Of a stretch of 64,000 nt of DNA, positions 52,732-63,900 are shown piece after piece (position 1 is the stretch's first letter; every line of letters starts with the position of its first letter). The notes under the pieces are model-generated. The model saw only the letters and a list, made by a program, of their open reading frames with translations. It had not been told where the DNA came from and ran no database searches. The translations under genes were made by a program, and so were the position numbers. This DNA is from an uncultured Cyclobacteriaceae bacterium (GTDB lineage Bacteria; Bacteroidota; Bacteroidia; Cytophagales; Cyclobacteriaceae), in assembly GCA_943788235.1 (NCBI GenBank), contig CALSPM010000002.1, forward strand, positions 657,983-721,982, written 5' to 3'.

Positions 52732-52763
52732 ATTTGATAAATATAAACTATTTTGGTGTACTT

Positions 52764-55070
52764 ATGTCAATGAACGATCAAAAACAATCTACCAAGAGTG
52801 TATTGAAAAGCCAGAAAATAATTATCCATGGCAGAGTTCAGGGCGTGGGATTCCGACCATTTATTTATAATCTGGCTCATCAAAATTCATTGGACGGTTG
52901 GATTAAAAACACACACAACGGAGTAGAAATTCATATTACTGGATTAGATAAAAATCATCAAAAGTTCATCGAATTGATTCAAACAAATGCACCGCAACAT
53001 TCAGTGATAAGAAGTATTGAAGTTGAGGACATTCAGTTAAATACTTTTTTGGACTTTGAGATACTACCTAGCAAAGAGGGAACTGAAAATCAAATAGAAC
53101 TGACACCCGACTTTGGTGTTTGTGATATTTGTGTTGAAGAAATTTTCAACCACTCGAATTCAAGACTTAATTATGCATTTACTACGTGCACACAATGTGG
53201 TCCTCGCTATTCAATTATAGAACAACTTCCCTTCGACAGACATACAACTTCCATGGCATCCTATGACATGTGTCCACGATGTAAAAGTGAATATCAAAAC
53301 TCCTCAGATCGAAGGTTTCATGGCCAGATCAATAGTTGTCCAGATTGCTCAATTCCTATGCGGTTGTATTTTCAAAATCAACTGGATGAGACGAACCCTG
53401 AGAGGATTTGTGAGAAAGTTATAGAAGCTTGGAATAAAGGAATGGTAGTTGCAACAAAGGGCTTAGGAGGCTACTTACTTACCACTGCCGCATCGAATCA
53501 GGAATCAGTCAAACACATCCGAAAAATCAAACACCGGAAAAGTAAGCCATTTGCTGTAATGTGCCCAGATATAAAGTATGTCCACGATAACTTTCATATC
53601 GATCCGAAAGAAGAGGTTTTCCTAAAGAGTTCTGTTGCGCCAATTGTACTTCTTCAGCCAAAAAACGCCTCAACATTCCTAGGCCAAATAGCCCCTGGAT
53701 TGGATAAAATTGGTGTTATGTTACCTTACACGCCACTTTTTCATTTGTTACTCAACAAGTATTCCAAACCAATAATTGCAACGAGTGCAAACAGGACACA
53801 TGACCCGATTATTTATGAAGATAAGGAGGCATTGATTAGATTGTCAGAAGTTGATTTTATTCTTACCTATGACCGTGAAATCAGCTTCCCACAAGACGAT
53901 AGCCTTATCGCTTTTTCTCCTTTCAAAAAGAAACAAATCACACTGCGAAGATCGAGGGGGTTGGCACCTTCTTTTCAACAGTCATTTAGTTTTCCAACTG
54001 ACAAAACTATCCTCGCATTTGGAGCGGACATGAAAGGTGCCTTTGCCTATTGCACCAATACCCAAGTGTATCTCAGTCAATACCTCGGAGACTTGAGCCA
54101 CTTCGATGTACAGCAAAGGACGGAAATTATGATCGAAAGATTTATTGGGCTTTTCAAGACCAAGCCGGATATAGTTCTAGTCGATAAACATCCCGATTAC
54201 TTTTCTACTAGGCTTGGTCAAGATTATTCAGTATCCAATGAGATTCCAGTTTACCATTTCCAGCATCATCGAACACATTTCGGAGCAATTTTAAGCGAAC
54301 ATGATCTTTGGAATAATGAATTTCCAATATTGGGAATTATTTGGGACGGAACCGGGCTTGGGGATGATTCGAATATTTGGGGTGGTGAATTTTTCATTAA
54401 AGAGAATTCACAGATTAGTAGAGTTGGACACTTGAAGTATTCGTCTTATATCGCTGGTGACAAAATGGCCAAAGAACCTAGATTATCAGCTTTGTCTTTT
54501 TCTGAAGAAATCTCAGAAGTTATCGAGCTGCTTAAAGAAAAATTTACAAAACAAGAATGGGAAAACTACCTTTTACTGAGTAAAAAATCTAATTTATTGA
54601 CATCTAGTATGGGGCGATTGTTTGATGCGGTAGCATCTCTCATTGGCCTTTGCGATGTTAACGAATACGAGGGGCAGGCTGCAATTCTTCTTGAGCAAGC
54701 AGCACTGCGATTTGTGAAACATGGATCATTGGATGCTGAACCATTTTCTTTTACAATAGAAGATGGGGTGGTTGACATAAAAAGCATGCTCCGACAGATC
54801 GCCCAACAAAAACCAGAAATAACTTCTGAAGAAATAGCATTTAAATTTCATATTACATTGGTTGAAATTATCAGAAGAATAGCTAAAGAACATAAGGTGA
54901 ATCATTTGGCTTTTAGTGGAGGTGTATTTCAAAATGGTTTGTTGGTTGATTTATTATTCCATAAACTTGAGAATGATTTTAGTCTATATTTTCATCAAGA
55001 ATTAAGTCCAAATGATGAAAATATTGCCTTTGGTCAATTGGCACTCTTCATCAATAGTCATTCATCATGA
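52764..55070 (+). CDS. hypF: Carbamoyltransferase HypF
   Basis: 768 aa from ATG 52764 (MSMNDQKQST); an in-frame TTG at 52734 is less likely as it lies inside the divergent promoter space. Makes the CN ligands of the active-site iron from carbamoyl phosphate. Domains in order: acylphosphatase (HGRVQGVGFRPFIY), two zinc-finger pairs (CDICVEE..CTQCGPRYS, CPRCKSEY..CPDC), YrdC (KHRKSKPFAVM) and Kae1-like (HFQHHRTHFGAIL, WDGTGLGDD, FSGGVFQNGLL). Confidence 0.96.
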   Translation: MSMNDQKQSTKSVLKSQKIIIHGRVQGVGFRPFIYNLAHQNSLDGWIKNTHNGVEIHITGLDKNHQKFIELIQTNAPQHSVIRSIEVEDIQLNTFLDFEILPSKEGTENQIELTPDFGVCDICVEEIFNHSNSRLNYAFTTCTQCGPRYSIIEQLPFDRHTTSMASYDMCPRCKSEYQNSSDRRFHGQINSCPDCSIPMRLYFQNQLDETNPERICEKVIEAWNKGMVVATKGLGGYLLTTAASNQESVKHIRKIKHRKSKPFAVMCPDIKYVHDNFHIDPKEEVFLKSSVAPIVLLQPKNASTFLGQIAPGLDKIGVMLPYTPLFHLLLNKYSKPIIATSANRTHDPIIYEDKEALIRLSEVDFILTYDREISFPQDDSLIAFSPFKKKQITLRRSRGLAPSFQQSFSFPTDKTILAFGADMKGAFAYCTNTQVYLSQYLGDLSHFDVQQRTEIMIERFIGLFKTKPDIVLVDKHPDYFSTRLGQDYSVSNEIPVYHFQHHRTHFGAILSEHDLWNNEFPILGIIWDGTGLGDDSNIWGGEFFIKENSQISRVGHLKYSSYIAGDKMAKEPRLSALSFSEEISEVIELLKEKFTKQEWENYLLLSKKSNLLTSSMGRLFDAVASLIGLCDVNEYEGQAAILLEQAALRFVKHGSLDAEPFSFTIEDGVVDIKSMLRQIAQQKPEITSEEIAFKFHITLVEIIRRIAKEHKVNHLAFSGGVFQNGLLVDLLFHKLENDFSLYFHQELSPNDENIAFGQLALFINSHSS

Positions 55071-55116: not shown

Positions 55117-56217
55117 ATGAAGTACCTAGATGAATTCAGAGACTCTACGCTGCTGAAAGAATATTTGGCGGAAATCAAGTGTACAGTCACTCGCCCCTGG
55201 TCGATTATGGAGGTATGTGGTGGCCAAACTCACAGTCTGGTGAAACACGGAATATTGAGGCTGATACCCGATTACATTAATATGATCCACGGACCAGGAT
55301 GTCCGGTATGCGTTACACCTCTCCATCTTATTGATAAAGCCGTACATCTAGCACTAGATAAAAATGTAATCCTATGCTCGTTCGGAGATATGCTTCGAGT
55401 TCCGGGTTCTGAAAAAAGCCTGTTGGAGGCCAAAGCAGAAGGAGCTGATATTCGGATTCTCTACTCACCGCTAGAAGCGGTCAGACTAGCGGAGAATCAT
55501 CCTGATAGGGAGATTGTTTTTTTTGCTGTTGGTTTTGAGACTACTGCTCCTGCCAACGCCATGTCCGTGCTTCAAGCTGCAAAACTTGGATTAACCAATT
55601 TCTCCATTCTGACCTCACACGTCTTGGTTCCACCAGCCATGGAAGCCGTACTAGACGATCCTGAAACAAAAATTGATGGATTTCTTGCAGCGGGTCATGT
55701 GTGTTCCATAATGGGAATTGATGAATATTATCCTATTGTGGAAAAATTCAAAGTGCCCATTGTTGTTACTGGATTTGAGCCGGTTGACTTACTACATGGC
55801 ATTCTAATGACTGTTCGTCAGCTAGAGCGAGGAGAATATAAATTGGAAAATCAATACAGCAGGATTGTTAAAGACGAAGGAAATGTGAATGCAAAAAAAG
55901 TAATTAATGATGCATTCGAAATACTGGATCGTGAATGGAGAGGAATTGGCACTATCCCAGCAAGTGGATACGAGTTGAGGAAGGACTTTCAAGCTTTTGA
56001 TGCAAATAAAAAATTTAACATTGACCTACCCAAAGTGCGCGAGCATGAAATATGCATTGCAGGCGATATTTTAAAAGGTAAAAAGAAACCTCATCAATGT
56101 GAGGCTTTTGGAAAAACATGTAAACCCGAAACTCCTCTTGGCGCACCGATGGTGTCTTCTGAAGGAGCATGTGCTGCCTACTACCATTACAGTAATCAGG
56201 ATGCAATAACTACTTGA
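55117..56217 (+). CDS. hypD: Hydrogenase maturation factor HypD
   Basis: 366-aa [4Fe-4S] scaffold that, with HypC, assembles Fe(CN)2CO. Hallmarks: MEVCGGQTHSLVKHGILRL, HGPGCPVCVTP, CSFGDMLRVPGS, FFAVGFETTAPANA, and near the C-terminus GDILKGKKKPHQCEAFGKTC and SEGACAAYYHY. Spaced 46 bp after hypF and 7 bp before hypE. Confidence 0.97.
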   Translation: MKYLDEFRDSTLLKEYLAEIKCTVTRPWSIMEVCGGQTHSLVKHGILRLIPDYINMIHGPGCPVCVTPLHLIDKAVHLALDKNVILCSFGDMLRVPGSEKSLLEAKAEGADIRILYSPLEAVRLAENHPDREIVFFAVGFETTAPANAMSVLQAAKLGLTNFSILTSHVLVPPAMEAVLDDPETKIDGFLAAGHVCSIMGIDEYYPIVEKFKVPIVVTGFEPVDLLHGILMTVRQLERGEYKLENQYSRIVKDEGNVNAKKVINDAFEILDREWRGIGTIPASGYELRKDFQAFDANKKFNIDLPKVREHEICIAGDILKGKKKPHQCEAFGKTCKPETPLGAPMVSSEGACAAYYHYSNQDAITT

Positions 56218-56224
56218 TCAGCCT

Positions 56225-57286
56225 ATGAAAGACACTTCTAAAATCAAGATGCAGTTACAATGCCCTCTTCCTAAGCTAGATTTTGAATATATCACCTTAG
56301 GTCATGGAAGTGGCGGTCTACTTACGCACAAATTGCTTGAGTCAGGCGTATTTGATCTACTTTCTAATGAGCACCTTGATAAACAAGATGATGGAGCATT
56401 CCTTACCCTAAAGCATGAAATAGCCATAACAACAGATAGCTTTGTTATCTCACCCATTTTCTTTCCAGGAGGTAATATTGGAGAACTCTCCGTGTTTGGA
56501 ACGGTCAATGATCTGGCGATGTGTGGTGCTGATCCGAAGTACCTGACGCTAAGTTTTATTATTGAGGAAGGGCTACTTTTTAAGGAATTTTGGGAAGTGT
56601 TAGTAGGGATCAAATGGGCAGCAGACAAAGCCAATGTCAAAATTGTAACAGGAGATACCAAGGTTGTAGACAGAGGGAAGGCAGACAAAATTTTTATAAA
56701 TACAACAGGAATAGGAGAAGTTCATTCGAATGCCAAAATAGATATAAACAGGATCAAAGTCGGTGACAAGATTATCTGCAGTGGTAATGTAGCCACTCAT
56801 GGTATGGCCATAATGTCCGTGAGAGAGGGTTTGGAATTTGAATCAACGATAGAGAGTGATACTCAAGAATTGAACCATCTCACTGCTGCATTAATTAAAC
56901 AGTATGGATCTGCCATTAAATTTTTACGTGACCCAACACGAGGAGGACTCGGGACGATACTTGCAGAAATCTCAAAAGACACCAATGTAGGAATTGATGT
57001 ATTACATGACAGTATCCCAATTGATCCATTGGTCTTTAGTGCATGTGAGTTACTTGGTCTAGATCCAATATATGTGGCCAATGAAGGAATTTTCATTTGC
57101 ATAATCGATGGGCAAGTAGCAGAGGATGCTACGGAATTTCTTCAGAAACTTGCCTATGGCGAAAATGCTGCCATTATTGGTGAGATAGTTGAAGATCACC
57201 CCAATAAAACGGTATTGGTAAGTCCAATTGGAGGTAGACGTGTGATCAACCTGCCTGTCGGAGAACAGCTACCCAGAATCTGTTAA
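56225..57286 (+). CDS. hypE: Hydrogenase maturation factor HypE
   Basis: 353-aa PurM-like protein that dehydrates the carbamoyl group on its C-terminal Cys to a thiocyanate. LGHGSGGLLTHKL, AITTDSFVISPIFFPGG, GTVNDLAMCGADP, TGDTKVVDRGK and DPTRGGLGTILAEIS are typical. The chain ends PRIC, providing the essential terminal cysteine. Confidence 0.97.
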   Translation: MKDTSKIKMQLQCPLPKLDFEYITLGHGSGGLLTHKLLESGVFDLLSNEHLDKQDDGAFLTLKHEIAITTDSFVISPIFFPGGNIGELSVFGTVNDLAMCGADPKYLTLSFIIEEGLLFKEFWEVLVGIKWAADKANVKIVTGDTKVVDRGKADKIFINTTGIGEVHSNAKIDINRIKVGDKIICSGNVATHGMAIMSVREGLEFESTIESDTQELNHLTAALIKQYGSAIKFLRDPTRGGLGTILAEISKDTNVGIDVLHDSIPIDPLVFSACELLGLDPIYVANEGIFICIIDGQVAEDATEFLQKLAYGENAAIIGEIVEDHPNKTVLVSPIGGRRVINLPVGEQLPRIC

Positions 57287-57408: not shown

Positions 57409-58575
57409 ATGGCAAAATTGAATGTTGCTATGCTGGCGCAGACAAGTGCCTTATTACCAGACAATATAGAAGAAGTCCATGCTTTTTGGATAGCTGGAGG
57501 TAGTTGTGATGGTTGCTCAATAGCCGCCGTTGGAGCAACTAGTCCCTCTGTAGAAGATTTAACAAATGGAACAATTCCTGGAGCTCCAAAAGTAATTTTA
57601 CACCATCCTGTTTTAGCCGTAAATGCAGGTGAATCATTTATGGAACCTTTTCGATTAGCGGCCAAGGGTGAATTGGGTGCTCCATTTGTTGTCATTTGTG
57701 AAGGTTCAATTATGGATGAAGGATTAGCAGCTGAAACAGGAGGATATTGGTCTGGAATGGGTTCGGATGAAGATGAAAACGGAGATCCACAACCTATTCC
57801 TTCTTCAAGTTGGGTAACCAGAATGGCCGAACACGCGGCCGCAGTAATTGCTGTTGGCACTTGTGCTACTTGGGGCGGAATACCGGCTGCCGCAGGCAAC
57901 CCCACTAATGCTGCAAGTGTAATGGACTTATTGGGAGAAGACTATCGAAGTTCATTGGGATTACCTGTCGTCAACATTCCCGGATGTGCCCCGCAGGGTG
58001 ACAACATTACAGAAACGATTATTGCCGTTTTACTATTCTTACATGGTATAGGTCCCTTGCCTGAATTTGATGAATTAGGACGACCTGCTTGGTTATTTGG
58101 AGAAACGGTCCATAGGGGATGTACAAGAGCCGGATATTACGAGGAAGGTGAATTTGCAAAACAACATGGTGATAAGGAATGTTTGGTTGAAGTTGGCTGC
58201 TGGGGTCCAGTAGTCCAATGTAATATTAACCAACGAGGTGCTATAAACGGTATGGGTGGTTGTATGAATGTCGGCGCACCATGTATTGGATGTACAATGC
58301 CTGGTTTTCCAGATAGTTTTGCCCCATTTTATCAAACACCTCCTGGTACTGTTGTCTCATCTAATATTTCGAGGGTCACAGGTTCATTAGTAGGTAATCT
58401 CCGTAAGATGACACAAGCTTCTCAAAATCGGACAAGTAAGTGGAACAAAGATGGAAATGTACCTTCAGGATGGGGACATGTAGCCGAGCCCAGTGTTTTG
58501 GAAAAGGTTGCCCATTTTGCCTACGAGAAATTGCAATTTAAGAATAGCCCTAAACCAGGATCAAAAGTCAAATAA
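57409..58575 (+). CDS. [NiFe]-hydrogenase small subunit, group 1h/1l-like
   Basis: 388-aa electron-transfer subunit. There is no Tat signal (starts MAKLNVAMLAQTSALL), unlike periplasmic group 1 enzymes. Proximal cluster ligands lie in GGSCDGC (Cys33, Cys36; Asp34 between), VGTCATWGG (Cys152) and PGCAPQG (Cys193). Distal: His235, Cys238, Cys258, Cys264; medial: Cys271, Cys285, Cys292, Cys295. The actinobacterial-type (group 1h) enzyme of Ralstonia eutropha uses three Cys and one Asp at its proximal cluster, and the CDGC motif with Asp recalls that type. Subgroup 1h versus 1l needs a tree. It heads the structural operon. Confidence 0.93.
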   Translation: MAKLNVAMLAQTSALLPDNIEEVHAFWIAGGSCDGCSIAAVGATSPSVEDLTNGTIPGAPKVILHHPVLAVNAGESFMEPFRLAAKGELGAPFVVICEGSIMDEGLAAETGGYWSGMGSDEDENGDPQPIPSSSWVTRMAEHAAAVIAVGTCATWGGIPAAAGNPTNAASVMDLLGEDYRSSLGLPVVNIPGCAPQGDNITETIIAVLLFLHGIGPLPEFDELGRPAWLFGETVHRGCTRAGYYEEGEFAKQHGDKECLVEVGCWGPVVQCNINQRGAINGMGGCMNVGAPCIGCTMPGFPDSFAPFYQTPPGTVVSSNISRVTGSLVGNLRKMTQASQNRTSKWNKDGNVPSGWGHVAEPSVLEKVAHFAYEKLQFKNSPKPGSKVK

Positions 58576-58577
58576 TT

Positions 58578-58868
58578 ATGGATGAAACAAGCCTATTTAC
58601 GGAATGGTATATCGGTCTTGGCATTGTTACCGTGATCATTATTGCTGCAGCAGTCTTGCTGATTTTGGTTTGGACCGCTGCACGTAGAATATTGCGATTA
58701 GCAACTACTGCTTTGGGATTGGTTGTTCAAATAAAAAACAATACAAAGAGCGTTTGGGGTTTGCAGACAACCAACAAAGTGGCTGGTGATATTCTGGAAG
58801 GAGCGAATGCGATTGAAACTCATGCAGGTATGGTAGCGGAAGCTTTACACGAAACAGATAGTAAATAG
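58578..58868 (+). CDS. Small single-pass membrane protein 1 of the hydrogenase operon
   Basis: 96 aa. Acidic N-terminus (MDETSLFTEW), membrane helix about 11-34 (YIGLGIVTVIIIAAAVLLIL), then Arg-rich AARRILRL, predicting N-out/C-in. The tail is amphipathic: LGLVVQIKNNTKSVWGLQTT, NKVAGDILEGANAIETHAGM. It belongs with proteins 2 and 4: TNKVAGDILEGANAIETHAG compares with protein 2 TNRVVAKIYDSAVNIVGGAK and with protein 4 VASGMLEVAGDIDKHAD. It begins 2 bp after the small-subunit stop. Inferred role: membrane attachment or electron/quinone path for the hydrogenase. Confidence 0.85.
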   Translation: MDETSLFTEWYIGLGIVTVIIIAAAVLLILVWTAARRILRLATTALGLVVQIKNNTKSVWGLQTTNKVAGDILEGANAIETHAGMVAEALHETDSK

Positions 58869-58877
58869 AGAATAATT

Positions 58878-59189
58878 ATGGACGCAATTACAATTGTTTG
58901 GGGAGTTTCGTTGATCATCGGATTGGTGGTGATCGGAGTGGTTGCCATTTTGCTAGGTTTAATTAAAAACACTGCCGCAAAAATAGATGTAGCGGCAGGC
59001 GAAATCTGGACACAGGGGAAACTAACAGCGAACAATACGATTCAGATTCCTTTATTTCTGTCTACAACGAATCGGGTGGTTGCAAAGATTTATGACTCAG
59101 CTGTAAATATTGTTGGTGGAGCCAAGGCGATTCAGCAACATGCGGAAGGATGTCCTGGTTGTCCAAATTGTATTTTACAACACCATTAA
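58878..59189 (+). CDS. Small single-pass membrane protein 2, with C-terminal CxxCxxC
   Basis: 103 aa. Membrane helix about 5-28 (TIVWGVSLIIGLVVIGVVAI), first Lys at 30, so again C-in. The middle part carries the family segment LSTTNRVVAKIYDSAVNIVG. It alone has a cysteine-rich end: EGCPGCPNCILQHH (Cys92, Cys95, Cys98 and two His), which could bind a metal or Fe-S cluster or react with the hydrogenase. Its ATG follows protein 1 by 9 bp in an AATAATTATG context. Confidence 0.85.
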   Translation: MDAITIVWGVSLIIGLVVIGVVAILLGLIKNTAAKIDVAAGEIWTQGKLTANNTIQIPLFLSTTNRVVAKIYDSAVNIVGGAKAIQQHAEGCPGCPNCILQHH

Positions 59190-59198
59190 TAGATTGAT

Positions 59199-59489
59199 AT
59201 GAATATATTATTAATGCTCGCGACTATAATAGCAGTACTACTGCTGGTTTTTGTTTTGGTGAAGTACTTGCGGGCCATCATTAATCTACTGACCAGCACA
59301 GGTGGTGACGGACAAAGCTATCTCGCTAAGTTGAGGTTGGGGTTGAGAGCAATTGAAACAGAAACGGGACACCTACCAGTAGAAGTCACTAAATTAAATG
59401 AAGCACTAACCAAAACAGGAGAAGGTTTGAAAGTAGTAGATAATCATTTGGTAGGTACCATTGACGCAGTTTTAAAACAAAAAAAATAA
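59199..59489 (+). CDS. Small single-pass membrane protein 3 of the hydrogenase operon
   Basis: 96 aa. Membrane helix about 3-22 (ILLMLATIIAVLLLVFVLVK), then KYLRAI, C-in. The tail defines a second family with protein 5: KLNEALTKTGEGLKVVDNHL against protein 5 TINGALTQLHGGLSSVDKHL, both followed by a VGT/IGI and VLK end. The spacing and heptad-like pattern suggest an amphipathic or coiled-coil helix. It starts 9 bp after protein 2. Confidence 0.85.
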   Translation: MNILLMLATIIAVLLLVFVLVKYLRAIINLLTSTGGDGQSYLAKLRLGLRAIETETGHLPVEVTKLNEALTKTGEGLKVVDNHLVGTIDAVLKQKK

Positions 59490-59491
59490 TT

Positions 59492-59773
59492 ATGTCAGTT
59501 GTCGATTTTCTTTGGACTATACTTTTGATAGTGACGGTTTTGTTGCTACCTTATATTATTTACCTTCTTCATACCACATGGAGAGCTGCGAGGAGTATTC
59601 AGCGCTATTTTGCTGAAATGTTGGAAGCAGGGTTGGGTATTGCTGGAAATGTAGATCATGTAAGTGCATTGAATGATACCATTTCGGTGGCTTCTGGAAT
59701 GCTCGAAGTAGCTGGAGATATAGACAAGCATGCGGATACCATAGAAGTTACACTTGCTGAAAAATCTAAATAG
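59492..59773 (+). CDS. Small single-pass membrane protein 4 of the hydrogenase operon
   Basis: 93 aa. Membrane helix about 5-26 (DFLWTILLIVTVLLLPYIIY), then HTTWRAARSIQRYF, predicting C-in. The tail (SALNDTISVASGMLEVAGDI, DKHADTIEVTLAEKSK) aligns with that of protein 1, including the shared AAR after the helix and the polar end with a final K. It starts 2 bp after protein 3. Confidence 0.85.
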   Translation: MSVVDFLWTILLIVTVLLLPYIIYLLHTTWRAARSIQRYFAEMLEAGLGIAGNVDHVSALNDTISVASGMLEVAGDIDKHADTIEVTLAEKSK

Positions 59774-59782
59774 CAGAAAGAC

Positions 59783-60073
59783 ATGGAAGAATTTTTAATG
59801 GACAAATCGATACTATTTTTCGCTACCGTGATTATTGTTTTTTTGGTAGTGGTCGTCTTGGTTATTTACCTTTTTCTAACCATTATAGCACTAAGAAAAG
59901 CTGGGACCAATCTAGAACAACTTGCCGGAGGGCTACAAAAAATAGCTAACGATAGCGAGCCCTTGGCCGAACATCTTGGGACTATTAATGGTGCATTAAC
60001 ACAATTACATGGAGGTTTATCCTCAGTAGATAAACATTTAATAGGAATAGCCAAAGTACTGAAACTGGTGTAG
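59783..60073 (+). CDS. Small single-pass membrane protein 5 of the hydrogenase operon
   Basis: 96 aa (a second ATG at codon 6 is possible). Membrane helix about 9-36 (SILFFATVIIVFLVVVVLVI), then ALRKAG, C-in. The tail (LEQLAGGLQKIANDSEPLAE, LGTINGALTQLHGGL, VDKHLIGIAKVLKLV) is a paralogue of protein 3. It is the last of the five; the large-subunit gene follows 39 bp later. Confidence 0.85.
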   Translation: MEEFLMDKSILFFATVIIVFLVVVVLVIYLFLTIIALRKAGTNLEQLAGGLQKIANDSEPLAEHLGTINGALTQLHGGLSSVDKHLIGIAKVLKLV

Positions 60074-60112: not shown

Positions 60113-61987
60113 ATGTGTTTTAAAAACTTACCCATTGATTTTGATGAAAACGGTAACGCTTTTTTGAAAGAAGGTATCGAAAATCCATACGAACATAAAG
60201 TGGTCGATTTCGGAGTAGAGCAGGATAAGTTGAAAGACTTGTTGGCGAAAAATGGATTTATCAAGAACGTAGACTATGACCCTGTGACCAGAGTAGCAGG
60301 AGCATTGGCTTTCCATAGTGTGGTTGATTTGAAAGAGAAAAAAGTGTTATCTACAAATTCAATGGCGACACTATTTAGAGGGTATGAAATAATATTAAAG
60401 GGTCGTGATCCACGAGATGCTGCATATATTAGTAGTCGAGCGTGTGGTGTGTGCGGTGGCGTGCATGCTACCTGTTCTGCATTAGCTATCGAAATGGCAC
60501 TGGGCATCAAGCCCCCACCTTTGGGAGTAGTAATGAGAAATTTATTGCTGGCGATAGAATATCTATATGACCACCCACTCCATTTGTTTCTTCTTGCAGG
60601 ACCGGATTATTCCGAGGAATTGGTCAAAAAAACCAACCCTGAACTAATTGATAAAGCCGCCAATACGCCTTGCAAAAACGAAGATGTTCATGGGTATAAG
60701 ACAGTTTTGGACATTATGAAAGACCTCAATCCGCTTAAAGGCAAATTATATCTTGAGGCATTAAGCATGACCCGGGTGGCTAGAGAAGCTTATGTCGTTA
60801 TTGGTGGTAAATACCCTCACCCACAATCGGTAGTGCCAGGTGGAATTTCCGTGACTGTGAGCATTACTACTTTGAATGAAGTGTACAGTCGTTTGGTTAA
60901 ATTCTTTGACTATGGTCAAAAAACAACTGGGATTTGGGATGATGTGTTTGATTTTTTCCTTGAGAGCAATCCGGAATATGCTAAATGCGGAATTCGGCCA
61001 GCAACAATGATCGATACAGGAGTTTGGGACAGACCGGATTCGTATGATGCTACTTTTGAAAATTGTGACAAATGGGGTAATGATAGGTGGTCTACTCCTG
61101 GCGTATTGGTCGATGGTGAAGTAGTTACTACAAACCTAAAAGAAGTTAACGCTGGATTAGAAGAATTTGTGGATCATTCGTACTATGAAAAATGGAAAGG
61201 TCATGAATACAAAAAAGATCCCTCGGGAATGCCGCTAAGCCCTAATCATCCATGGAATAAGGAAACTATTCCTAAACCTGGCAAACAAAGTTGGAGAGAT
61301 CGATACAGCTGGGATACCTGTCCTACTTGGGACAGGATGCCAATGGAGGCAGGCGCCTATACACGTATGTACATGACCGCTAAGGCTAAAAAAGCACCAG
61401 ATAGCCAGTTTCTGGAAAATACAGGTCATAGTATGAAAATAAAAGTCCCCAAGCATCAGTTGCCGGGTAAAACATTAGAATGGAATATTCCCGAACATTG
61501 GAATGCTTTTGAAAGAAATCGTGCCCGAGCGTATTGCATCCCCTACTCTGCTGCCGTAGCTATGGACAACTGGTTATTAGCACAACAACTGATTCGAGAT
61601 GGACACACCGAAGTGAGTACGCCATACGAAATACCAAAAAAAGGAACGCAGATTGGTTTTGGTGCTTGGGGAGCTGGACGTGGTTTTCTGACGCATCACC
61701 TGATTGTTAAAGACGGGGTTATCGACAACTACCAAATTGTTACACCTTCTACACTAAATGCAGCTCCAAGAACTCCATGGGGAGCAATGGGGCCATATGA
61801 AGAAGCCGTGCTGAATACGCCCATTTTGGAAAAATTCGATAATCCAGATAAATTTCAAGGGATTGATATATTGAGAGCTATTAGAAGTTTTGACCCATGC
61901 ATGCCGTGTACCACACACATCATGGACAATGATAGTGACCATATTGTGAAAAGAGAAGTTACTACTTGTGCCTGCGGAATCGAATAG
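60113..61987 (+). CDS. [NiFe]-hydrogenase large subunit, group 1h/1l-like
   Basis: 624-aa catalytic subunit. L1 motif SRACGVCGGVHATCSALAIE (Cys111, Cys114) and L2 motif SFDPCMPCTTH (Cys596, Cys599, His602) supply the four Ni-Fe ligands. YDPVTRVAGAL replaces the usual xxPxTRIEGH. A 22-residue extension after His602 (IMDNDSDHIVKREV then TTCACGIE) should be cut off by the maturation protease. The large insert around DRPDSYDATFENCDKWGNDR is characteristic of the larger high-affinity type subunits. Together with the Tat-less small subunit this suggests oxidation of trace H2 on the cytoplasmic side, which is inference. Confidence 0.93.
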   Translation: MCFKNLPIDFDENGNAFLKEGIENPYEHKVVDFGVEQDKLKDLLAKNGFIKNVDYDPVTRVAGALAFHSVVDLKEKKVLSTNSMATLFRGYEIILKGRDPRDAAYISSRACGVCGGVHATCSALAIEMALGIKPPPLGVVMRNLLLAIEYLYDHPLHLFLLAGPDYSEELVKKTNPELIDKAANTPCKNEDVHGYKTVLDIMKDLNPLKGKLYLEALSMTRVAREAYVVIGGKYPHPQSVVPGGISVTVSITTLNEVYSRLVKFFDYGQKTTGIWDDVFDFFLESNPEYAKCGIRPATMIDTGVWDRPDSYDATFENCDKWGNDRWSTPGVLVDGEVVTTNLKEVNAGLEEFVDHSYYEKWKGHEYKKDPSGMPLSPNHPWNKETIPKPGKQSWRDRYSWDTCPTWDRMPMEAGAYTRMYMTAKAKKAPDSQFLENTGHSMKIKVPKHQLPGKTLEWNIPEHWNAFERNRARAYCIPYSAAVAMDNWLLAQQLIRDGHTEVSTPYEIPKKGTQIGFGAWGAGRGFLTHHLIVKDGVIDNYQIVTPSTLNAAPRTPWGAMGPYEEAVLNTPILEKFDNPDKFQGIDILRAIRSFDPCMPCTTHIMDNDSDHIVKREVTTCACGIE

Positions 61988-62537
61988 AAATATTTTCGTG
62001 GGTACGGTCGGGTATGCTATACTCAGCAATCACTCCATTGGCCCAATTCTGCTACCTCATTTGAAGAAAATGGATTGGCCGAAGGGTGTTTCAGTTGATG
62101 AGCTTAACTGGGGGCCTATTGCCGTAGTTCAACAATTTGAGGCCTTAGAAATTGCCTATGATAGAGTAGTATTGCTTGTAGCAATAGAAAGATCTCATAG
62201 GAAAATCGGCGAAATAAATATTTTCCAATGGAAGGGTGAGCTACCTGATGAAAAACAAATACAAGCTTGTATTGGAGATGCCGCAACTGGTGTAATCTCC
62301 GTTGAAAATTTATTAGTTATTGGAGAATATTTTAAAATATGGCCAAAAGAAGTATTTTTAGTGGACGTAGAGCCAGGTCCTGAGGTGGCGGGGGAAAATC
62401 TTACAACTGAAGTAGCGGAGAATGTTCCGGATATTTTGAAATTGGTGCAACATCTTGCCGTTGAAGGGACTGATGATACTGACCTAGTAGATATATTGAG
62501 AGGAAATGAATTGTTTAATGAAGAACTCAACGCATGA
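61968..62537 (+). CDS. Hydrogenase maturation protease-fold protein lacking metal ligands
   Basis: 189 aa from a GTG start that overlaps the large-subunit gene by 20 bp. The layout follows HybD-type proteases: GTVGYAILSNHSIGPILLPH against GIGNELRQDDAFG, and DRVVLLVAIERSHRKIGEIN against DILIMVDAVDWGNKPGKVEF of the canonical protease at 63388. The nickel-binding Glu, Asp and His of HybD are all absent at these places. It may be a non-catalytic chaperone for the large subunit. Homology is judged by pattern only. Confidence 0.6.
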   Translation: MPAESNRNIFVGTVGYAILSNHSIGPILLPHLKKMDWPKGVSVDELNWGPIAVVQQFEALEIAYDRVVLLVAIERSHRKIGEINIFQWKGELPDEKQIQACIGDAATGVISVENLLVIGEYFKIWPKEVFLVDVEPGPEVAGENLTTEVAENVPDILKLVQHLAVEGTDDTDLVDILRGNELFNEELNA

Positions 62538-62932
62538 AGGCAAGTGATATAGAGAAATCACCTTTACGTACCATGTTCTGGCGAGATGAAATCCTGCAAG
62601 TGATGTATTGGATGGATGGTGAAAATTTCGGCAACTGGATTCCTGCAAAGCAAATACTTACTTTGTTAAACACCAATTCTCACAACTTACTTTATCATCT
62701 GACAAAATTAACAGCAGAAGGGTATTTAGAATTTGAGGGGGAACCATTGGAAGAAACTTCCTTGATATGTCTTTCGGAAATGGGTAAGAAAGAAGCAGGG
62801 GGGCGTTTTTCAGAGGCTTTTCAAGGTTTGCAGAAGGCGGGACATGGAGAATGTGGACCAGATTGTGAATTCTGCTATGGAACTGACGGAGTGAAATTGG
62901 ATAACTGCGTTCACAATTGCGATCATCACTAG
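62534..62932 (+). CDS. Winged-helix-like protein with Cys/His-rich tail
   Basis: 132 aa. Residues about 10-90 look like a winged helix (DEILQVMYWMDGENFGNWIP, AKQILTLLNTNSHNLLYHLT, KLTAEGYLEFEGEPL). The tail GECGPDCEFCYGTDG and DNCVHNCDHH gives five Cys (107, 111, 114, 125, 129) and three His, a probable metal site. Its ATG overlaps the previous stop (ATGA). It could be a metal-responsive regulator or a metal-delivery factor; hypA, the usual Ni-delivery protein with a zinc site, is not seen nearby. Confidence 0.65.
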   Translation: MKASDIEKSPLRTMFWRDEILQVMYWMDGENFGNWIPAKQILTLLNTNSHNLLYHLTKLTAEGYLEFEGEPLEETSLICLSEMGKKEAGGRFSEAFQGLQKAGHGECGPDCEFCYGTDGVKLDNCVHNCDHH

Positions 62933-62933
62933 T

Positions 62934-63293
62934 ATGGAACCAGTCTACTATAGCAATAAAGAATTCATCGAAATATTACAGGATATAGACGACATGATCG
63001 AAGAGGCAGAAAAGTCTCCGTTTCAGCAGTCGAAAGATTTGACCAAATCCATTTTGAAACATTTTGACTTAGTGCACAGAGAGCCACTATCTCGTATGAT
63101 GAAAATGATCGAAAACGATTATCCCGATTTGAGGTCAAAGTTAGAAACAGATTATACAATAAAAACTATGTTCAGATTGTACGACTTGATAGAAGGTGAT
63201 ATTATAAAAAGTCCGGCAGCTGTTCCAAACAACTTTATTCCAGTTGAGGATGTGGGTTATTTTCCTACCATCATCAATCCAAAAAAGAGTTGA
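62934..63293 (+). CDS. Conserved-looking helical protein of the hydrogenase operon
   Basis: 119-aa soluble, mostly helical, acidic protein. FDLVHREPLSRMMKMIENDY and DYTIKTMFRLYDLIEGD recall the helical N-terminal domain of NifU-like proteins found in some hydrogenase clusters, but the NifU cysteine domain is missing. That comparison is tentative. It follows the Cys/His protein by 1 bp and is the last gene before a terminator-like hairpin. Confidence 0.55.
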   Translation: MEPVYYSNKEFIEILQDIDDMIEEAEKSPFQQSKDLTKSILKHFDLVHREPLSRMMKMIENDYPDLRSKLETDYTIKTMFRLYDLIEGDIIKSPAAVPNNFIPVEDVGYFPTIINPKKS

Positions 63294-63387: not shown

Positions 63388-63900
63388 ATGAAAAAACCTA
63401 CCGTTCTCATAGCAGGTATTGGTAACGAGCTAAGACAGGACGATGCATTTGGGATGGAGTTTGTCAAGCAATATGCAAATGAGAAAATTCCTGAGTGGGT
63501 AAAAATCATGGAAGTTGGTATTGGCGGAATTCACTTAGTTCAGGAATTACATTCCGGATACGATATACTGATCATGGTAGATGCAGTCGATTGGGGGAAC
63601 AAACCTGGTAAGGTTGAATTTCAGGAAGTTGAATCCATTAGTGACATCACAGAAATGCCTGTTTTTGAAAAACGAACATTTTTGGCTGACATGCATTATA
63701 CAAATCCCACAAGAGCATTGATGCTTGCAAAAGCTTTAAATGTACTGCCAGAAAAAGTATTCATTTTGGGTTGTCAATCTGCCCAGCATGATGATTTTGC
63801 AATCGGAATGAGTAAGCCAGTCATCGCTGCTATCCCTAAAGCAGTTTGCCTGTTACAAAAATGGTTGGCTTCTACTCAGTTAGAAGTAATTAAAAAATAG
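63388..63900 (+). CDS. Hydrogenase maturation protease (HyaD/HybD/HycI family)
   Basis: 170-aa endopeptidase that removes the C-terminal extension of the large subunit after nickel insertion. Signature IAGIGNELRQDDAFGMEFVK (Glu14), VDAVDWGNKPG (Asp65/Asp68) and DMHYTNPTRA (His103) give the HybD-type metal site. It lies behind the terminator-like hairpin with a 94-bp spacer, so it may have its own promoter. Confidence 0.93.
   Translation: MKKPTVLIAGIGNELRQDDAFGMEFVKQYANEKIPEWVKIMEVGIGGIHLVQELHSGYDILIMVDAVDWGNKPGKVEFQEVESISDITEMPVFEKRTFLADMHYTNPTRALMLAKALNVLPEKVFILGCQSAQHDDFAIGMSKPVIAAIPKAVCLLQKWLASTQLEVIKK

Follow-up and report, generated by a model that had tools for sequence, protein, structure and literature searches.

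Two families of small membrane proteins between the subunit genes of a putative group 1l [NiFe]-hydrogenase, and their possible role as a membrane stalk

The gene block between the hydrogenase subunits

The window analysed here is a stretch of 64,000 nucleotides from an uncultured Cyclobacteriaceae bacterium (GenBank assembly GCA_943788235.1, contig CALSPM010000002.1, positions 657,983 to 721,982 of the forward strand), and the subject of this work is a block of five open reading frames (ORFs) within it, p1 to p5, all on the plus strand and each encoding one N-terminal membrane helix, that lies between the genes for the small and large subunits of a [NiFe]-hydrogenase. The small subunit gene (57409..58575, +) encodes 388 amino acids (aa) matching Pfam families PF14720 and PF01058, and the large subunit gene (60113..61987, +) encodes a 624-aa protein, by likeness of group 1l, that matches PF00374 (E 4.5e-75) and is the one large subunit found with that family in the genome. 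Between them p1 (58578..58868, 96 aa), p2 (58878..59189, 103 aa), p3 (59199..59489, 96 aa), p4 (59492..59773, 93 aa) and p5 (59783..60073, 96 aa) follow one another with the coordinates and lengths that an earlier note on this DNA had given them. The intergenic gaps from the small subunit gene to p5 are 2, 9, 9, 2 and 9 base pairs (bp), and 39 bp separate p5 from the large subunit gene. Most homologues of p5 begin around five codons further downstream, giving around 91 aa, hence its true start may be at 59798. RNA folding at the start of p1 was unremarkable (z -0.28).

Several likenesses point to a group 1l enzyme. Firstly, the large subunit is 65% identical over residues 1-624 to that of a locus of Marinovum algicola FF3 (L028), and because this strain is named as encoding group 1l (PMC10305171), the window's enzyme is taken to belong to the same group. 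Secondly, it is 76% identical to the large subunit of the Hymenobacter roseosalivarius locus, and a tree of large subunits sets the 1l proteins apart from six comparators. Thirdly, the window contains the five short transmembrane proteins between small and large subunits by which group 1l is recognised (PMC9561532). The nearest solved small subunit, and the best match of the window's own in the Protein Data Bank (PDB), is 5aa5_A, named HofK there (E 3.9e-108), from an entry described as group 1h (PMC9561532). No Tat-like motif occurs within the first 45 residues of the small subunit, as the earlier note had held, and no cytochrome b gene was noticed adjoining the operon on reading the window's genes and their Pfam matches.

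The five-gene arrangement, which the earlier note had thought new, is already in print. A 2021 PNAS study on group 1l is the likely earlier work cited by the 2022 paper described next. A paper of 2022 describes five short predicted transmembrane proteins, HylTM1-5, between the subunits in group 1l clusters, and cites an earlier study for that cluster (PMC9561532), ruling out that the arrangement is unreported. Group 1l was present in all 18 soil metagenomes of that paper (PMC9561532), and was the dominant hydrogenase subgroup in subantarctic seawater samples (PMC10305171).

Two families and their distribution

As the earlier note had judged by eye, the five genes are duplicated copies of two protein families, alpha (p1, p2 and p4) and beta (p3 and p5). 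When the tails alone were compared with hhalign, probabilities within families reached 91.5% (p1-p2), 95.3% (p1-p4), 93.5% (p2-p4) and 95.5% (p3-p5), the six cross-family pairs gave at most 2.1%, and reversed-profile controls at most 15.5%. Full-length profiles gave 97-98% within families and, across them, 90% for p1-p5, 34% for p2-p5, 30% for p2-p3, 14% for p4-p5, 11% for p3-p4 and 4% for p1-p3, the first of these being ascribed to the membrane helix. The alpha proteins share the core xNTxxIxxLxxTNxVAxxILxxA and the beta proteins the pattern GLRAIxxxTxPL...N..L.....GL..VD.HL, and a tail stretch of p3, SYLAKLRLGLRAIExET, is strongly conserved. Searches of Pfam and NCBIfam returned no family for the five small proteins, the match of p5 to DUF948 (PF06103) scoring 18.8 bits, below the gathering cut-off of 37.2.

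A single scan through the GTDB genomes yielded 41 loci with a relative of the large subunit, 35 of which provide an interval between the two subunit genes; L007, L010 and L012, whose contigs end before the small subunit gene, and L040-L042, which have no such gene, were excluded. Five small genes lie within 32 of these intervals, two within those of L029 and L033, and four within that of L038. The five-gene loci span Bacteroidota, SAR324, Alphaproteobacteria and Gammaproteobacteria, and are not all independent: L026/L027 and L008/L009 share 99.7-99.8% identical DNA, L009 and L027 being omitted from the family alignments as near-copies, and L025 matches the window at 99% identity in both subunits. 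The p2 ORF of L024, which lacks a membrane helix, was omitted from profiles and topology counts. The five-gene block is not a chance occurrence, and the lack of conservation that the earlier note had named as its possible undoing was not found.

Searches of whole genomes link the two families to the 1l enzyme. Among 195 relatives the large subunit was matched in 36, in four of them at 80% identity or higher. Alpha is present in precisely these four, and the 32 whose hydrogenases are more distant have none. Beta was found in the same four, a further match in G106 being rejected as an ORF without a membrane helix. Within the window's own genome the profiles matched at the operon only, with three alpha and two beta proteins (E < 1e-28), beside one stray alpha match (E 0.76). 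Of 301 Chloroflexota genomes, 34 gave a large-subunit match (E up to 1e-60), and eight were counted as 1l, seven with large subunits of 57-67% identity and G301 with a broken one of 50%. Ten of the 301 have alpha, namely these eight with G258 and G435, and beta was matched in the same ten, in G437, where repetitive ORFs without a membrane helix were rejected as family members, and weakly in G467 (5.9e-5). Scoring in these Chloroflexota searches for alpha and beta was capped at 16 or 17 candidates in each genome, and copies can therefore be missed; G330 gave one alpha in the genome search, against two seen at its locus.

The sets found in Chloroflexota are alpha-beta, alpha-beta-alpha-beta or the full five: five genes stand at L108 and L113, four at L109, L110 and L111, and L076 has four visible genes, its contig starting 190 bases before them. 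Neither alpha nor beta was matched at any of 17 comparator loci. Twelve of these are from 11 Chloroflexota genomes, chosen out of 26 with a more distant large subunit (L118 and L119 share one genome), and five are plasmid-borne; the comparators are called group 1h by likeness and with C. necator H16, and L121, whose small subunit is more distant (39%), may not belong to that group.

Two genomes, G202 and G203, keep a large-subunit-like gene and are missing both the small subunit and alpha. Such proteins, seen at L040:6920-8770, L041:6743-8707 and L042:1998-3968, have the first cysteine of the N-terminal CGxC replaced by serine (SGIC) and the DPCxxC kept. Their genes stand beside hypF/hypD/hypE, and in L040 also beside a YcaO protein. 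Those of L040 and L041, the loci of G202 and G203, fall within 1l on the large-subunit tree, inside the alphaproteobacterial five-gene clade. They appear to be orphan hydrogenase-like proteins.

Trees built from 54 alpha and 40 beta rows, with support given as bootstrap/SH-aLRT, group each gene position with its counterparts across phyla. With the Chloroflexota loci L108 and L113 included, this support is 100/98 for p1, 100/99 for p2, 98/94 for p4, 93/94 for p3 and 100/98 for p5; without them p2 (69/10) and p5 (57/88) are weak, and p4 and p3 are not single groups. The small proteins are short, and many forks are weak. Within the alpha tree, the single alpha of two-gene sets falls on the p2 side together with the leading alpha of four-gene sets (87/87), and the later alpha of the four-gene sets falls on the p4 side (91/83); p1 has no counterpart in either kind of set. 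When the large-subunit tree is rooted with the six comparators (SH-aLRT only), four-gene loci split off first, and the five-gene clade has the two-gene loci as its sister. This pattern would fit an alpha-beta-alpha-beta ancestor, with p1 gained later and loss in the two-gene line, and other orders are possible.

The operon as a whole runs hypF, hypD, hypE, small subunit, five small genes, large subunit, d1, d2, d3 and a HycI-type protease. Of the maturation genes upstream of the small subunit, hypF (52734-55070, +) was named by Pfam, and hypD (55117-56217, +) and hypE (56225-57286, +) by reading of the sequence. Downstream, d1 (61968..62537, +) is weakly like a maturation protease (TIGR00072, E 7.3e-8, below the cut-off) and is matched in 39 of the 41 1l loci, L029 and L113 ending before it, and in one of the 17 comparators (L121). 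In many 1l loci it lies beside a proper protease gene, and it is perhaps a second, altered maturation protease. The next gene, d2 (62534..62932, +), gave weak winged-helix matches only, with no family over the cut-off, and is matched in 36 of the 41 1l loci and no comparator; its cysteine-rich C-terminus, CGPDCEFC...CVHNCDHH, is also seen in L022. Matches to d3 (62934..63293, +) occur in 23 of the 41 1l loci, L033 not among them, and in none of the comparators. Its homologue in L022, 36% identical over 90 residues, seems on reading to continue into a Rieske-like part. Last comes the maturation protease of the HycI family (63388..63900, +), the same gene in L179 matching PF01750 at E 1e-17.

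A possible membrane stalk

Each small protein has one strong N-terminal hydrophobic segment. The topology proposed in the earlier note, with the N-terminus outside and the C-terminus inside, is supported because lysine and arginine are more numerous after this segment than before it in 31/31 p1, 30/30 p2, 28/31 p3, 30/31 p4 and 30/31 p5 proteins, the window included. The predicted cytoplasmic tails appear to have coiled-coil periodicity: family-averaged hydrophobicity over the whole tail has a period of 3.40-3.54, a result reached by 0-5 of 1000 permutations. AlphaFold2 models of p2 and p3 as single chains, which are of moderate confidence, have two to three long helices each, with confident membrane helices and a mean pLDDT of 71.8 for p2 and 83.6 for p3, the tail of p3 being the better modelled. 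The best PDB matches of the beta profile are designed coiled-coil bundles and barrels, with viral spike helices and others also present; such likeness reflects coiled-coil composition, and was rejected as a sign of kinship to either.

The small subunit has a feature of its own that accompanies these proteins. Its alignment to 5aa5 stops at residue 348, leaving an extension of residues 349-388 (58453..58572, +) that contains PSGWGHV and YEKLQ. Small subunits of group 1l run past the end of the comparators in this way, and the added part has a P[SN]GW(G/A) motif ahead of a stretch like YEKLQ. The P[SN]GW motif is present in 40 of the 41 1l loci (39 by pattern and L023, with PNGW, by eye) and in none of the 17 comparators; in L024 the small subunit frame is broken. 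Because it is present with two-, four- and five-gene sets, the extension is a natural candidate for a docking site for the small proteins, a suggestion drawn from correlation.

An enzyme that is cytoplasmic, with neither a Tat motif nor a noticed cytochrome b gene, must still reach the membrane. The five genes probably encode a hetero-oligomeric, coiled-coil membrane stalk that docks it there, and such an anchor is the simplest reading because it accommodates the N-out helices, the coiled-coil tails, the matching extension of the small subunit and the tight linkage to 1l. The three alpha and two beta proteins would each insert one helix with its N-terminus outside, and their tails would pack in the cytoplasm as a mixed coiled coil, holding the small subunit via its 1l-specific C-terminal extension. 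From a position near the membrane, the small subunit would pass electrons from H2 to menaquinone, presumably this organism's quinone, with no need of a cytochrome b subunit. We infer from the gene block, families, topology, periodicity, linkage and extension that the five form one complex, that this binds the small subunit, and that the route to quinone runs through the stalk or alongside it.

This proposal, built on sequence and single-chain models, is held with moderate confidence, and several results weigh against it. Taken helix by helix, the tails give ten segments, of which four pass at 5% and six are not significant; the second of p2, the second of p3 and the first of p4 are among those that pass, and counting both of p5 would make five. 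The single-chain models have low pTM (0.37 and 0.33), pLDDT in the p2 tail past residue 50 averages 45-58, and Foldseek found no match in the PDB for the modelled chains. Two strains with 1l genes showed no substantial H2 consumption (PMC10305171). The Chloroflexota 1l locus L114:2765-7519 has a four-gene set upstream of the small subunit and a large subunit broken into several frames, a layout that may reflect decay, rearrangement or sequencing error.

To these must be added two Chloroflexota genomes, G258 and G435, with alpha/beta clusters beside which no hydrogenase gene was seen. That of G258 (L162:8643-11879) is an alpha-alpha-beta-alpha-beta set near genes for an FAD-oxidase, an Fe-S protein, malate synthase and lactate permease, and adjoins a gene for a 529-aa protein with several hydrophobic segments and two similar halves. 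No hydrogenase gene occurs in the 19 kb examined around it, and the large-subunit matches of this genome, on another contig and cut by the contig end, share around 40% identity with the window's large subunit, as the comparators do. The cluster of G435 (L161:4507-9215), whose class was judged from neighbours alone, has nine alpha/beta genes, consisting of the five-part set followed by four longer copies (192-207 aa) with heptad-patterned tails. Its 14.7 kb contig has no hydrogenase match, and the only large-subunit traces found in this genome are fragments at contig edges. A PsbP-family gene adjoins the cluster. Hence the module may serve other partners, or those hydrogenases from a distance.

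If the proteins do form a stalk, it is possible, and tentatively proposed, that their tails make a hollow helical barrel, alpha2beta2 in the four-gene and alpha3beta2 in the five-gene form, whose lumen would carry menaquinone to the small subunit. The periodicity of the tails is consistent with this, as are the designed bundles and barrels that head the beta matches, through likeness of composition. In Huc, a tetrameric tube of HucM is proposed to carry menaquinone over 94 A (PMC10017518). However, hydrogenase entries are absent from the 42 PDB matches of the alpha profile (E up to 10), and a short, membrane-anchored tail may just bring the small subunit to the membrane surface.

It is rather unlikely that the five proteins are a plain tether that handles no quinone, with electrons leaving via a soluble carrier or a separate quinone reductase. 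L029 and L033 manage with just two small proteins (around 90-140 aa) between the subunits, and the published passages on this cluster call the five simply short predicted transmembrane proteins (PMC9561532). Yet one helix would be enough for a tether, and five differentiated subunits, conserved in position, suggest something more.

The C-terminus of p2 raises a further alternative. Residues 88-98 (59139..59171, +) contain His88, Cys92, Cys95 and Cys98 in the motif H-x3-C-x2-C-x2-C, possible ligands of a metal or Fe-S cluster, and H-x(2-5)-CxxCxxC is found near the end of 29 of 31 p2 proteins, with CxxC in 0/31 of p1, p3, p4 and p5. In the detached sets of L161 and L162, the second alpha protein has a similar cysteine motif at its end. 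That these residues bind a cluster relaying electrons from the small subunit is doubtful, since the motif may be a structural zinc site and is not universal: L036 and L037 lack it, and none was seen in two-gene or four-gene sets. It is therefore an accessory of the five-part form. In the Chloroflexota p2 at L113:1600-1951 (minus strand), the middle cysteine codon of CPGCPxC is TGA, followed in frame by PRC, which may be selenocysteine, a nonsense change or a sequencing error.

Least probable is that the proteins aid maturation or insertion of the enzyme from outside the final complex. Maturation genes do flank the operon and detached sets exist, but the small genes stand between or beside the structural genes in the loci seen, not among the hyp genes, and the small subunit has a co-occurring extension. 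More speculative than the stalk itself, and on balance improbable, is a general device for uniting a cytoplasmic enzyme with membrane quinone: a modular stalk of alpha-beta units, grown or shrunk between two, four and five subunits, with a mixed helical barrel and hydrophobic lumen, docking on the small-subunit tail, handing menaquinone to the small subunit, bearing a His/three-Cys metal site in its five-part form, and detached and lengthened in some Chloroflexota.

Comparison with known hydrogenase systems

Searches of the open-licence literature, preprints left out, found no earlier report of the grouping by position across phyla, of the alpha-beta, alpha-beta-alpha-beta or all-five sets in Chloroflexota, of the linkage of alpha to 1l among relatives, of the C-terminal extension of the 1l small subunit, of the His/three-Cys motif of p2 or of coiled-coil periodicity in the tails, and no structural account of how the 1l enzyme meets the respiratory chain. 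The division into alpha and beta, the two- and four-gene versions and the extension make this link a testable question, and the smallest set, a pair of one alpha and one beta protein, would suit structural study well.

The group 1l cluster with HylTM1-5 has subunits split by five short predicted transmembrane proteins and a related enzyme, and no departure from it was seen in the window; alpha and beta families, reduced sets and the extension do not appear in the passages on 1l consulted (PMC9561532). The group 1h hydrogenase of C. necator H16 (PDB 5aa5; L176) resembles the window in having the closest solved small subunit, no Tat motif and related maturation genes, but its subunit genes are adjacent, and it has neither an alpha or beta match nor the PSGW extension. 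Like the window, the group 1m cluster includes small single-helix proteins, two of 82-92 aa, but its subunit genes are adjacent (PMC9561532).

Huc, the high-affinity group 2a enzyme of Mycobacterium smegmatis, binds and reduces menaquinone directly (PMC10017518). It resembles the window, whose enzyme may be high-affinity too, in having a small coiled-coil scaffold protein coded within the hydrogenase operon. The earlier note had drawn this comparison, which stands as a possible likeness of function and fails as one of layout. HucM is one protein, a peripheral tetramer whose gene is directly upstream of hucS (PMC10017518), whereas the window has five proteins, from two families, that all carry a membrane helix and are encoded between the subunits. 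No hydrogenase entry appears among the best 60 of the 197 PDB matches of the beta profile. With a single upstream HucM, and no hydrogenase among the alpha matches, any likeness to HucM is therefore probably functional. If the stalk does carry quinone, the HucM tube would have a counterpart that is probably unrelated.

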